Positions 25,401-29,667 of a stretch of 34,154 bases of DNA are shown piece by piece. The stretch lies in IMG/VR virus record IMGVR_UViG_3300025645_000230, positions 1-34,154 of that record; one strand, written 5' to 3'. Position 1 is the stretch's first letter; every line of letters begins with the position of its first letter. Below the pieces are notes generated by a model. That model did no database searches. It had not been told where the DNA came from and saw only the letters and a program-made list of their open reading frames with translations. Origin of the DNA: a virus. The translations under genes were made by a program, and so were the position numbers.

Positions 25401-25581
25401 AAAAAAGCACGGAGGTGTTAGAAAAGGAGCGGGAAGACCGAGGATTGACGAGGTAAGAATTACCCTTTCAATGCTTACCGATGAACAAACGGCTCTTAGG
25501 TTTAAAACATTAGCAGCAACATTAAATTTGTCCTACCCGAAAACCTTAAGGTTCTTGTTAGATCAAAATAAAAACAAATGA
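25390..25581 (+). CDS. Small GRP-motif DNA-binding protein
   Basis: A 63-residue protein starting with a basic Gly-rich GGVRKGAGRPRID motif (AT-hook-like) followed by a ribbon-helix-helix-like segment (EVRITLSMLTDEQTALRFK). Overlaps on both sides (the next by ATGA) tie it to the ParB-like gene. It is a candidate autoregulator of the island. Confidence 0.6.
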   Translation: MKIEKKHGGVRKGAGRPRIDEVRITLSMLTDEQTALRFKTLAATLNLSYPKTLRFLLDQNKNK

Positions 25582-26129
25582 AAATTGTAGAAAGAAAAAT
25601 CAAGGATCTCATTCCTGCAGAATACAACCCAAGACAATTAAGGGAAAAGCAATTTGAGGAAATCGAAAAGAGCCTTTCTAAATTTGGCTTTGTTGATCCT
25701 GTTATAGTAAACAAGAAAGCACCGAGAGAAAACGTAATAGTTGGAGGACATCAGCGCTGCAAGGTTTGGAAATCGTTAGGAAACGAAACAGTTCCAACTT
25801 TCGAGGTGAATCTCTCTCTCGAAGAAGAACGAGAATTAAATGTTAGATTAAACAAAAATACTGGAGAATGGGACTTCGATTCTCTGGCTAATTATTTTGA
25901 ACAAGAAGAATTGATTGAGTGGGGTTTTGAAGAATACGAGCTTGGCATGGTGGAGGATGTTGATTTAGACGACTTCTTCGATGACGAGGAAAAGGAATCT
26001 TCAGATGCGCTTCCTAAAATTGTGTTAGAATACACTGAAGAAGAACATAAAAAAGTGACCGAGGGCTTAAAGAAGATTGCTGGCACTCCAGAAAACGCTG
26101 TTTGGAAACTTCTCGGCTTCAAGGAATGA
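25578..26129 (+). CDS. ParB/sulfiredoxin-fold protein, probable DpdB-type partner of DpdA
   Basis: A 183-residue protein. The N-terminal 90 residues carry the ParB/Srx core: LIPAEYNPRQ, QFEEIEKSLSKFGFVDPVIV and GGHQRCKVW (residues 56-64), the nucleotide-binding box of this fold. An acidic tail (DVDLDDFFDDEEKESS) follows. In bacterial dpd clusters a ParB-like ATPase, DpdB, is required with DpdA to insert the modified base. The ATGA coupling to the DpdA-like gene supports the same role here. A general chromosome-partition role is unlikely without ParA. Confidence 0.75.
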   Translation: MKIVERKIKDLIPAEYNPRQLREKQFEEIEKSLSKFGFVDPVIVNKKAPRENVIVGGHQRCKVWKSLGNETVPTFEVNLSLEEERELNVRLNKNTGEWDFDSLANYFEQEELIEWGFEEYELGMVEDVDLDDFFDDEEKESSDALPKIVLEYTEEEHKKVTEGLKKIAGTPENAVWKLLGFKE

Positions 26130-26860
26130 AAATCTACCTTGCGGGAACTTCCCCCGACAACTTGAGGAAGTTGGAACAAAAAGCAAACATTCTCGAAAGC
26201 TTCGCCTACATGAAGAAGCACAAGAAGGACATTCATTTGCTGCTAAGAAACAATTTTATGTTAGATAGCGGCGCTTTTACATTCATAGGTGACAAAAAAA
26301 CAAAAATCAATTGGCGTATATATACTGAAGAATACGCCAAATTTATAAACGAGAACAATATAGAATTATTTTTTGAGTTAGACATCTATTCCGTCATTGG
26401 AACAAAAGAAACCGAAAATTTGAGAACTTCAATTGAAAGCATGACTAACAAGAAATCAATTCCTGTTTGGCATATCTTTCTAGGTATTGATTACTACAAA
26501 TGGATGGTAAAAAATTACGACTACATAGCAATAGGAGCAAGCGGGAGGCACGATAGTAAATGGACAAGAACCAACCCAGAAAAATTAAAAGCGTTAGTTC
26601 AATATGCGAAGAAGCGAGGAACAAAAGTCCACGGCTTAGGTTATACTGTAATGAAAACGCTTAAAGAAATTCCTTTTCATTCGGTTGATAGCACGACTTG
26701 GCAGCATAACGGGCATAGATTCGGAAAGATATACAAGTTTACAGGAAACGGAATGAAGAACATCCACCCTAAGAAAAACGTCAAAAACAAAAACGGATTG
26801 ATAGACCACAATTTTAAAGAATGGGTAAAGTTTCAATCTTACGCAGAAAGCAATCTTTAA
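26126..26860 (+). CDS. DpdA-like DNA transglycosylase (phage TGT family)
   Basis: A 244-residue enzyme that should exchange guanine in DNA for a 7-deazaguanine base. TGT-family landmarks are in order: MLDSGAF (D47), FELD (D86), IAIGASGRHD (about 134-143), HGLGYT (about 169) and SVDSTTW (D188), matching the catalytic and substrate-binding Asp/Gly positions of tRNA-guanine transglycosylase. The Cys-rich zinc site of tRNA TGTs is not visible, as in phage DpdA proteins. ATG 26126 (in ATGA with the ParB-like stop) is chosen. It is followed by deazaguanine synthesis genes. Confidence 0.85.
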   Translation: MKIYLAGTSPDNLRKLEQKANILESFAYMKKHKKDIHLLLRNNFMLDSGAFTFIGDKKTKINWRIYTEEYAKFINENNIELFFELDIYSVIGTKETENLRTSIESMTNKKSIPVWHIFLGIDYYKWMVKNYDYIAIGASGRHDSKWTRTNPEKLKALVQYAKKRGTKVHGLGYTVMKTLKEIPFHSVDSTTWQHNGHRFGKIYKFTGNGMKNIHPKKNVKNKNGLIDHNFKEWVKFQSYAESNL

Positions 26861-26861
26861 C

Positions 26862-27617
26862 ATGAATGTTCTTGGTCACATAGCGGTTGGTCTAATTGGT
26901 TATGCTATAAGCAAAGATCCGCTTTTCTTGTTGGGTTCTATCCTCCCCGATGCACCTTTGATAGCAAATGAAATGCGGAGGACTCAATTCAATAAATGGG
27001 ATGTTAAAGGCAAGTGGTTGTATGATGTTACTCACTCCCTTTATACTCCAGTTGTCCTTTTCTTTATTTCACCAATCACAAGCCTTGCTTTCCTAATCCA
27101 CATTCTGTTAGACGTTCCTTTTCACAGCAGTGCTTTTCGATGGAAGCCGTTTCTTTTTAACAGATACAAATCTACCAAGAAAGCTTTGCTGTTAAGCGGT
27201 GGTGCTGACAGTGTTGCTTGCTTCATGACTGAAAAGGATTATGATTGCTATTACTTTAACTATGGGCAAGAGTATCACAGTAAAGAATACCGTTATGCTG
27301 AAAAAATTTGCGAGAAATACGGCAAGAAATTAAATGTGATAAATTGCCAATGGGGACATGATGCAAAAAACCGAAACTTCATGCTGATTTCAACCCTAAC
27401 ACAATTAGGATATGATGAAGTGATAATAGGAACGAGAAACCTCCTTCCATTCTTCGACAAATACAAAGACAGCAATTGGTTTAGCCTCAAAATATATCAG
27501 TATTTACTACGTGTTTATATCAATACTCCTTTAGTCGGTCTTTTCAAAAAGCAAATAAGCAATAAATGCCAACAAGAAGGCTATTATTCAAGTGAGAATT
27601 ACAAAAAGAAAAAATGA
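26862..27617 (+). CDS. Fusion of a membrane metal-hydrolase-like domain with a truncated QueC
   Basis: 251 residues in one uninterrupted frame. Residues 1-105 have the YdjM/DUF457 pattern of membrane-bound metal-dependent hydrolases: GHIAVGLI (H6), LLGSILPDAP (D30), VTHSL (H58) and HILLDVPFH (H80, D84, H88), with hydrophobic helices. Residues 106-251 are QueC-like: LLSGGADSVA (the SGGxDS pyrophosphatase loop, 112-117), FNYGQEYHS, and NTPLVGLFKKQ near 221. QueC normally ends with a four-Cys zinc site (CxxCxxC type); here the protein stops just before it, leaving only one Cys (C236). It may make an amide or nitrile form, or be altered. It overlaps queD by ATGA. Confidence 0.75.
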   Translation: MNVLGHIAVGLIGYAISKDPLFLLGSILPDAPLIANEMRRTQFNKWDVKGKWLYDVTHSLYTPVVLFFISPITSLAFLIHILLDVPFHSSAFRWKPFLFNRYKSTKKALLLSGGADSVACFMTEKDYDCYYFNYGQEYHSKEYRYAEKICEKYGKKLNVINCQWGHDAKNRNFMLISTLTQLGYDEVIIGTRNLLPFFDKYKDSNWFSLKIYQYLLRVYINTPLVGLFKKQISNKCQQEGYYSSENYKKKK

Positions 27618-28057
27618 TATATCTATCAACCAAAATAATTCCGTTAGGGTCAACTACATTTAGACAATGGAGGGCTGATAGTCATTGCAAATACATTCAT
27701 GGCTACAGGCTTCTAAGCAAAATCTGGTTTACTGCGGATAAATTAGACAAGAACAATTGGGTCTTTGATTTTGGAGACTGCAAGCGATTAAAATACATGT
27801 TAGAATATCAATTTGACCACACATTTTGCTGCGCTGCAGATGATCCAGAGATTGAAACATTCAGAAGACTAGAAGAAAGGGGATTGTTGCAGTTGAGAGT
27901 GATGGAAGAGGCAGTAGGAATTGAGGCAACCGCAAAGTGGGTCTTCAATCTTGCCAATAATCATGTAGAGGATAGAACGAGGGGAAGGGCTTGGGTTTCT
28001 AAGGTGGAAGTTTGGGAGCATGAAGGGAATAGCGCAATTTACGAAATAGACAAATGA
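27614..28057 (+). CDS. queD: 6-carboxytetrahydropterin synthase, QueD-like variant
   Basis: A 147-residue member of the QueD/6-PTPS family, which turns dihydroneopterin triphosphate into 6-carboxytetrahydropterin. Visible are SHCKYIHGY (catalytic Cys 25), NWVFDFGDCK (48-57), FDHT (D68, H69) and VEVWEHEG near the end. The zinc-binding HGH is HGY here (H29, Y31), and the upstream part is shortened, so the metal site differs from E. coli QueD. ATGA overlaps join it to the fusion before and queE after. I call it queD because of context and the conserved Cys and DH. Confidence 0.85.
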   Translation: MIYLSTKIIPLGSTTFRQWRADSHCKYIHGYRLLSKIWFTADKLDKNNWVFDFGDCKRLKYMLEYQFDHTFCCAADDPEIETFRRLEERGLLQLRVMEEAVGIEATAKWVFNLANNHVEDRTRGRAWVSKVEVWEHEGNSAIYEIDK

Positions 28058-28797
28058 AAGACTATCTAACATTAAGCGATGATCTCGCTTTTTACACAAT
28101 CGAAGGAGAAGGAGAGCACATAGGAAAGCCGTCAGTATTTCTAAGGTTATCGAATTGCAATCTAACCTGTAAGGGGTTTGCAACAGAAGATTCTCCCCAT
28201 GGTTGCGACTCTTACATTTCTTGGTCAAAGAAAAACAAATACACCTTTAAAGAATTAAATGATTTTTTTGCTCGTAATCTTTTCGATGGATATTTGAGAA
28301 GGGGTGCTATTTTAAAAATAACGGGAGGAGAACCATTGCTTCAAAGGGTTGCGCTCAAGGCTTGGCTTATTACATTTGAGGAACGCTTCGGCTTCATGCC
28401 TTGGATTGATTTTGAAACAAACGGAACTATTCTTGTAGATGACGAATACTGGGGAGAAGATAATGAAAAAGTTTCCTTCACAGTTTCACCAAAGCTTTCT
28501 AACAATGGAGATCCAGAAAAGGTTAGATACAAACCCAAAGCAATTAAATGGTTGAGCGACAACGGCGCTTGCTTTAAGTTTGTGGTAAGCGAGCAAGAAC
28601 AGGTAAAAGAAATCTATGATATGTTCATAGAAAAAGGATTGGTTGCCAAATCAAGAGTTTGGTTGATGCCTTGCTGTGGCAGCAGGGAAGAACACACTCA
28701 GAAATCCGCAATGGTAGCAGAACTCTGCAAATGGAATAATTTCAACTTCTCCCCAAGACTGCAACTGGTCATCTGGGACATGGCTCTCAAGGTCTAA
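28054..28797 (+). CDS. queE: 7-carboxy-7-deazaguanine synthase (QueE, radical SAM)
   Basis: A 247-residue radical SAM enzyme that rearranges 6-carboxytetrahydropterin to 7-carboxy-7-deazaguanine. FYTIEGEGEHIGKPSVFLRL is the QueE N-terminus, and the Fe-S cluster cysteines are C35, C39 and C51 (CNLTC, then GCDSY, so Cx3C followed by an 11-residue insert before the third Cys). GGEPLL (91-96) binds SAM. The classical spacing is Cx3Cx2C; longer loops are known in QueE. VSPKLSN and CFKFVVSE are further conserved parts. It is coupled to queD by ATGA. Confidence 0.92.
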   Translation: MKDYLTLSDDLAFYTIEGEGEHIGKPSVFLRLSNCNLTCKGFATEDSPHGCDSYISWSKKNKYTFKELNDFFARNLFDGYLRRGAILKITGGEPLLQRVALKAWLITFEERFGFMPWIDFETNGTILVDDEYWGEDNEKVSFTVSPKLSNNGDPEKVRYKPKAIKWLSDNGACFKFVVSEQEQVKEIYDMFIEKGLVAKSRVWLMPCCGSREEHTQKSAMVAELCKWNNFNFSPRLQLVIWDMALKV

Positions 28798-28809: not shown

Positions 28810-29667
28810 ATGAAAAAGGAACACGTAAACATTAGCGACATCATCAACAAAATTCCAAGCAACTTAGGGCAAGGGCATAGAATTTACGGCATACCAAAAG
28901 GGGGTTGGAACATTGCCAACCTTCTAGAGAAGCAAGGATACGGATTGATTGAGTATGACGTTACAAAGGCAACTCTCATTGTTGATGATATTGTAGACTC
29001 TGGGGCAACCAAGGAACGCTACCAGCAGTTAAACGCAAAGGCAGACTTCTTTGCGCCATACGACAAGACCATTGAGCCAAACCTTCCTTGGATTGTGTTT
29101 CCTTGGGAGGGAGGGCAAGAGGCAAGTGTTGAGGATTGCGTAGTAAGGCAACTGCAATATTTGGGGGAGGACATCAATAGGGAAGGATTGTTAGAAACAC
29201 CAAAGCGAGTAGTAAAAAGTTGGAGCAAAATCTTTGGCGGCTACAATGAAGATCCAAAGGATCATATTAAGCTATTCGATTCTGAGGGATGCGATGAAGT
29301 CGTTCTCTTGAAAGATATAGAGTTTTATTCAAATTGTGAGCATCACATTCAGCCATTCTTTGGCAAAGCGCATATTGCTTACATTCCTAACAAGAACGTT
29401 ATTGGAGTGTCTAAGCTCGCCAGAATCCTTGAAGTATTCACAAGGCGACTGCAAATCCAAGAACGCATAGGAACACAAGTAGCAGACGTATTGATGGAAG
29501 AGTTAAAACCCCATGCTGCTGCCTGTTTAATTGAAGCAAAGCACTTCTGTATGGTCTGCCGTGGAGTAGAGAAGCAAAACTCAACAATGATGACCTCTGC
29601 CTTGCGTGGAGTATTCAAAACAGACGCAAGCGCAAGAGCAGAGTTAATGTCCATGATTCAAAAATGA
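28810..29667 (+). CDS. folE: Fusion of a phosphoribosyltransferase domain with GTP cyclohydrolase I (FolE)
   Basis: 285 residues. Residues 1-102 form a small type I phosphoribosyltransferase: RIYGIPKGGWNIA, the PRPP loop LIVDDIVDSGAT (56-67) and the terminal WIVFPWEGG. Residues 103-285 are GTP cyclohydrolase I: INREGLLETPKRVVKSW, FYSNCEHHIQPF (C156, H158, H159), GVSKLARILEVFTRRLQ, CMVCRG (C227, C230) and TSALRGVF, with all zinc ligands present. FolE makes dihydroneopterin triphosphate, the first intermediate of the deazaguanine route. The added domain could salvage a purine base. It starts 12 bases after queE. Confidence 0.9.
   Translation: MKKEHVNISDIINKIPSNLGQGHRIYGIPKGGWNIANLLEKQGYGLIEYDVTKATLIVDDIVDSGATKERYQQLNAKADFFAPYDKTIEPNLPWIVFPWEGGQEASVEDCVVRQLQYLGEDINREGLLETPKRVVKSWSKIFGGYNEDPKDHIKLFDSEGCDEVVLLKDIEFYSNCEHHIQPFFGKAHIAYIPNKNVIGVSKLARILEVFTRRLQIQERIGTQVADVLMEELKPHAAACLIEAKHFCMVCRGVEKQNSTMMTSALRGVFKTDASARAELMSMIQK

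Follow-up and report, generated by a model that had tools for sequence, protein, structure and literature searches.

What does a QueC-like enzyme do when it lacks the zinc-binding end of QueC and is joined to a domain resembling a membrane metal hydrolase? The question is raised by a gene at positions 26862..27617 (stop included) of the window, by which we mean the whole stretch of DNA analysed, a virus contig of 34,154 bases. The gene starts with ATG, runs as a single uninterrupted frame on the plus strand, where the other window features described below also lie, and encodes 251 amino acids comprising a YdjM/PLPC-like N-terminal half and a compact QueC-like C-terminal half. Considering its neighbors, its conserved residues and its predicted fold, we propose that the fusion on balance probably stands in for QueC in a phage 7-deazaguanine DNA pathway, converting 7-carboxy-7-deazaguanine (CDG) to the amide (ADG) and perhaps onward to the nitrile (preQ0).

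Conservation of the fusion

The fusion protein ends in ...GYYSSENYKKKK, its stop overlapped by the start of the QueD gene at 27614. No CxxCxxC motif occurs anywhere in the protein or in the three downstream frames, and no frameshift restores the zinc-binding end that the earlier note had found missing. IMG/VR, scanned by pattern with the entire protein, an alignment and each half on its own, yielded 12 distinct fusion proteins on 15 contigs, the window included, the other 11 being from 92% down to about 39% identical to the window copy. In every one (12/12) the halves are joined and the same truncated end lacks the zinc cysteines of the C(x)8CxxCxxC motif; searches with each half apart found fusions only and no split forms in IMG/VR. 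The joining of a membrane-type domain to a QueC devoid of its zinc cysteines, as the earlier note had described it, is thus both real and conserved. Beyond IMG/VR, the 252-aa UniProt entry A0A6J5N497, annotated as QueC, matches the fusion over its full length at 58% identity. No fusion relatives were found in GTDB genomes, and tblastn against 50,697 phage records returned no match to the whole fusion (window copy and that of relative L006) or to the N half alone, while matches to the C half alone were confined to the PP-loop region of QueCs.

Both halves are under purifying selection, with Nei–Gojobori dN/dS values over four pairs of 0.12–0.36 for the N half and 0.06–0.16 for the C half, the N half being higher in each pair (4/4). 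Nothing beyond the window being a metagenomic virus contig speaks for an error of sequencing or assembly or for a gene in decay. Both are excluded: the same architecture and the same end recur in the 12 distinct proteins, spread over 15 contigs, A0A6J5N497 matches as well, and dN/dS stays within 0.06–0.36 across both halves.

Gene neighborhood

The gene order in the window is ParB-like, DpdA, fusion, QueD, QueE, FolE. A ParB-N domain protein (25578..26129; PF02195, E=8.8e-8), conserved upstream of DpdA, precedes the DpdA-like DNA guanine transglycosylase (26126..26860; phrog_887, E=2.8e-49), and the fusion is followed by QueD (27614..28057; PF01242, E=3.7e-17; phrog_2389), QueE (28054..28797; phrog_2076, E=7.2e-47) and FolE (28810..29667; PF01227, E=5.3e-69), after which come genes that, from their translations, we take to encode terminase and portal. 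ParB, DpdA, QueE and FolE also adjoin the fusion in its relatives (DpdA, QueE and FolE by tblastn), in the order QueE, FolE, ParB, DpdA, fusion in one of them (L049); the window QueD has tblastn counterparts in three relatives (L001, L002, L010), and a QueD-like frame, recognized by eye, lies directly downstream of the fusion in four (L003, L004, L006, L050). Judged by the presence of DpdA together with FolE, QueD and QueE, the fusion lies in a phage 7-deazaguanine DNA-modification cassette. Neither a second QueC-family gene nor a separate QueF was found in the virus records searched, which are fragments and whose silence is no proof of absence; the hits to the QueF model coincide with FolE genes. 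In phage MT835752.1, which has the same gene order, the position of the fusion is taken by a QueC-like gene that is not fused and has CxxCxxC intact. Among the genes scanned around the fusion there is no CD-NTase and no QatA/B/D, the pairings of the Cap9 and QatC defense ligases.

Two further observations concern these clusters. The window FolE carries an N-terminal phosphoribosyltransferase-like domain (phrog_8995, aa 53–103) with a TLIVDDIVDSGAT motif; the same FolE fusion occurs in relative L010, and in Flavobacterium phage immuto_2-6A a stand-alone phosphoribosyltransferase gene separates QueE from FolE (L025, 8924–9319). The link between phosphoribosyltransferases and phage 7-deazaguanine clusters is a recurrent one. 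In addition, Cellulophaga phage phiST (L023) and Chryseobacterium phage MA9V-3 (L026) have FolE, QueD and QueE and no QueC-family gene.

The QueC-like half

Residues 106–251 (27177..27614) form a QueC-like N-type ATP pyrophosphatase domain. The Pfam QueC model PF06508 matches aa 109–167 above its cut-off (E=1.8e-8; 34.6 bits vs 22), whereas the QueC equivalog model TIGR00364 falls far short of its own (33.7 vs 150.3 bits). An AF2 model of the fusion (pLDDT 81, pTM 0.75) finds its best structural match in Cap9 (9nto; Z 16.4, 143 residues aligned, 2.7 A), followed by the QueC structures 3bl5 (Z 14.7) and 2pg3 (Z 13.8), in agreement with the QueC core that the earlier note had recognized and proposed to examine by structure comparison.

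Motif alignment locates the SGGADS pyrophosphate loop at aa 112–117 (27195..27212); Y134-x-Q136-x-Y138 with E142 (27261..27287), the counterpart of YxQxHxxE with Tyr in place of His; KNRN at aa 169–172 (27366..27377), the counterpart of VPxRN, in which R171 corresponds to E. coli R99; YKDS at aa 201–204 (27462..27473), the counterpart of YPDC with Ser in place of Cys, its Tyr and Asp being the base-recognition pair; and K229 (27546..27548), the counterpart of QueC K165. A C-terminal YYSSE (27582..27596) replaces the zinc module, with Y242 aligned to E. coli Y189 close to the truncated end. Invariant in 12/12 are SGGxDS, Y134, Q136, E142, R171, N172, Y201, D203, S204, K229 and Y242.

Set against the QueC signature (PMC13329287), the fusion thus keeps SGGxDS; from YxQxHxxE the Tyr and Gln, the Glu being shifted; from VPxRN the RN; from YPDC the Tyr and Asp; and also the Lys and, in line with Y189, a C-terminal Tyr. 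Missing are the YxQxH His, the VP of VPxRN and some tens of residues ahead of that motif, the zinc module, and the Cys of YPDC, which reads YKDS in every fusion member. The absence of the C-terminal zinc cluster, as first noted, is confirmed but is not the whole loss, since the loop before VPxRN and the YPDC Cys have gone as well.

Do these remnants suffice for catalysis? In E. coli QueC, alanine mutants of Y35, R99, Y131 and Y189 are inactive (PMC13329287); their counterparts Y134, R171, Y201 and Y242 are invariant in all 12 fusion proteins, the last of them aligned near the short end. Cap9 recognizes 7-deazaguanine through a Tyr/Asp pair that stacks on the base and reads it; B. subtilis QueC has this pair too (PMC13279940), and the fusion retains it as Y201/D203. 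Most simply, we infer that the C half still activates CDG. In a tree of QueCs, a branch of 4.5 changes per column leads to the fusion family, which the tree does not place; because of this long branch and unsettled placement, the substrate of the family may have changed.

The N-terminal half

The first 105 residues (26862..27176) make up a helical domain resembling YdjM and Zn_dep_PLPC, a likeness that rests on weak Pfam matches in relatives, an hhalign comparison with E. coli YdjM and helices predicted by AF2. The window copy itself matches only PF00882 (E=0.031), whereas in single-sequence Pfam scans the relatives reach 5e-5 for PF00882 Zn_dep_PLPC (L015) and 4.5e-5 for PF04307 YdjM (L006), all below the curated gathering cut-offs (best relative 23.7 vs 26.8 bits for PF00882 and 23.5 vs 29 bits for PF04307). 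The hhalign comparison gives E=0.0016 but a probability of 16%, with PD, THSL and HxxxD in register, and a MAFFT alignment brings the N-terminal GH into line with that of YdjM as well; the second Asp/His of YdjM (DIDH) and its HRG are missing. A search of the PDB for folds like that of the N half found no match of weight (best VIA, Z 3.5), PHROGs returned no family for it, and among nine 7-deazaguanine phages the only trace of an N-domain or YdjM relative is a short, stop-containing match in MA9V-3. No glutamine amidotransferase domain is present, the N half matching only models of the PF00882, PF04307 and DUF4184 type. We read the N half as a YdjM/PLPC-like domain with a probably altered metal site, its membership of either family being unconfirmed; the YdjM-like pattern that the earlier note saw here therefore holds at the level of weak homology, in the aligned GH, PD, THSL and HxxxD, and does not extend to any Pfam score above cut-off.

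Seven residues of this half are invariant in 12/12. H6 of the GH motif (26877..26879), D30 of PD (26949..26951) and H58 of THSL (27033..27035), all aligned with YdjM, and H80-x3-D84-x3-H88 (27099..27125) are putative metal ligands, and E37 (26970..26972), singled out by conservation, is a possible one. The hydrophobic segment aa 64–82 (27051..27107), with a Kyte–Doolittle mean of 2.35 (2.1–2.5 in most fusion members), is a candidate membrane helix; a second segment from about aa 7 is borderline. Of the membrane tethering once suggested for this protein, an association with the membrane is plausible from the strong hydrophobicity of aa 64–82.

Could the N half be a mere membrane or scaffold anchor with a dead metal site? 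We regard this as possible, at a likelihood well below even. The hydrophobic segment, the loss of the second Asp/His of DIDH and of HRG, and the higher dN/dS of the N half in 4/4 pairs all fit such a role, but the invariance of H6, D30, E37, H58, H80, D84 and H88 in 12 proteins diverging to about 40% identity exceeds what an anchor would need. Most likely the N half serves to localize or stabilize the shortened QueC half; a hydrolytic role is possible.

Zinc-cysteine loss in phage QueCs

The loss of the zinc cysteines, which according to the earlier note a normal QueC needs, turns out to recur and is not unique to the fusion. In a small, hand-picked panel of 12 phage QueCs, in which host QueC confounds the product, CxxCxxC is absent from 7: those of HD01, RHEph04, R5C, Knedl, Pan1 and Me-ZS1, which are full-length and lie in QueD/FolE clusters, and that of immuto. 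Knedl, a member of Iggyvirus, reportedly has the dPreQ0 genes, as phage Iggy does (PMC11008142), and the DNA of CP220 is reported to be fully dADG (PMC8306585), whereas the QueC of CP220 retains both CxxCxxC and FPDC. Because CP220 keeps the cysteines and Knedl is without them, the state of the zinc site does not track the product in these few cases. This speaks against the earlier suggestion that zinc loss might halt the reaction at the amide, and we conclude only that cysteine loss alone does not predict an amide stop, the panel being small and host QueC a confounder.

Several QueC-family members outside the fusion family show variations of their own. In the QueCs of L064, L065, L066, L067, L027 and L028, full-length proteins from QueD/FolE clusters that in most cases include a DpdA-type gene, a conserved HTxYDGxYPPT-type motif replaces the zinc cysteines; the QueC of immuto_2-6A (L034) is likewise without these cysteines, and its C-terminal end is different. 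In MT835752.1 and BS162P1 (L020, L022), the QueC-like gene next to DpdA keeps CxxCxxC but is without the YPDC Tyr and the loop before VPxRN; the two form a separate long-branch pair.

Proposed function and alternatives

In the pathway that we favor, FolE, QueD and QueE would make CDG, and the QueC-like half would bind it and adenylate its carboxylate with ATP. Attack of ammonia on the activated CDG would yield the amide and perhaps the nitrile, and DpdA would exchange the resulting base into DNA. The QueC-like half would be a shortened QueC able to function with its zinc module gone, as seems to be the case for other phage QueCs; the YdjM/PLPC-like half would be helical, bind metal and probably have one or more segments inserted in the membrane. 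We hold this view because the gene sits among DpdA, QueD, QueE and FolE in records with no second QueC-family gene, because it keeps the counterparts of the four essential E. coli QueC residues and the Tyr/Asp pair, because its AF2 model matches Cap9 and QueC and both halves are under purifying selection, because MT835752.1 has an unfused QueC-like gene at the same place, and because six full-length phage QueCs and that of immuto lack CxxCxxC as well. It is weakened by the TIGR00364 score of 33.7 against 150.3 bits, the motif losses, the long branch and the alignment of Y242 near the end.

The product admits a narrower version of the same explanation, in which the enzyme stops at the amide and the DNA carries dADG. 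This is conceivable rather than probable. The Cys-to-Ser change in YPDC and the loss of the zinc module in all members are in its favor, as are the precedent of dADG as a known phage DNA base (PMC6884629) and the lack of a separate downstream enzyme in the cluster; yet the dADG phage CP220 keeps CxxCxxC and FPDC, and the phage QueCs without CxxCxxC include that of Knedl, from a genus credited with dPreQ0, host QueC confounding both comparisons.

A different chemistry is improbable. Instead of ammonia the enzyme might use a different amine, or a second substrate might be supplied or trimmed by the fused hydrolase, giving an N-substituted or otherwise new 7-deazaguanine. Cap9, the closest structure, joins CDG to a protein amine and not to ammonia (PMC13279940), none of the putative ligands in the fused metal domain varies, and YPDC has become YKDS on the substrate side in every member. 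Against this, nothing direct points to a second substrate, DpdA would need to accept a new base, and the N half could equally be a plain anchor. Should the metal domain nevertheless join in the chemistry, through another amine or through processing of the product, an undescribed 7-deazaguanine DNA base made at the membrane would be the outcome, an equally long shot.

Less probable still, to the point of being very doubtful, is that the fusion is DpdL, which a 2023 study reportedly predicted to be the CDG decarboxylase of dDG phages. The idea suits FolE–QueD–QueE–DpdA clusters that have no normal QueC, but decarboxylation needs no ATP-pyrophosphatase fold, and phiST and MA9V-3, with their FolE, QueD and QueE, carry neither a PF06508 gene nor an intact relative of the N domain; because these two phages do without it, a QueC-less pathway does not need the fusion protein.

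The finding suggests that about 145 residues, without the zinc module, can be enough for a phage QueC. It also opens two points to test: what the amide step and the nitrile step each require of QueC, and whether a modified base is made at the membrane in some phages.

Comparison with known systems

The QueC superfamily gains a domain architecture not described in the examined part of the results of a 2026 survey (PMC13329287). The earlier note knew of no such architecture, and it proves both unusual and conserved. Neither a YdjM–QueC fusion nor a zinc-less phage QueC is described in the literature searched, gkad657 and gkad622 (NAR 2023) lying outside it. We regard the architecture as new within the literature examined; it may have been described before.

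With QueC, the fusion has in common the PP-loop fold, SGGxDS, the RN of VPxRN, the YxD pair, the Lys, the C-terminal Tyr and the FolE/QueD/QueE cluster context. It differs in having a C half of about 145 aa as compared to about 220 for QueC, in the missing zinc module, the Cys-to-Ser change in YPDC and the deleted loop before VPxRN, in its extra N domain and in scoring far below the TIGR00364 cut-off. The full-length zinc-less QueCs of Knedl, Pan1, HD01, RHEph04, R5C, Me-ZS1 and immuto have lost the same cysteines and share the QueD/FolE context, in most cases with a DpdA-type gene; unlike the fusion, they have VPxRN and the YxDC-type motif essentially intact and bear no extra domain. Cap9 of type IV CBASS (PDB 9nto), the closest structure to the C half and likewise a compact QueC-like domain, has both the CxxCxxC zinc motif and YxDC intact (PMC13329287) and acts with a CD-NTase, of which none is seen in the cluster of the fusion. 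As for the N half, the inner membrane protein YdjM (PF04307) has GH, PD, THSL and HxxxD in register with it, whereas the N half scores below the cut-offs of both that family and zinc-dependent phospholipase C (PF00882) and is fused to a QueC-like domain. A further parallel is Gat-QueC of phage 9g and archaea. Like the fusion, it belongs to a DpdA phage pathway and bears an additional domain ahead of QueC; there the added domain is a glutamine amidotransferase, whereas here it is YdjM/PLPC-like.
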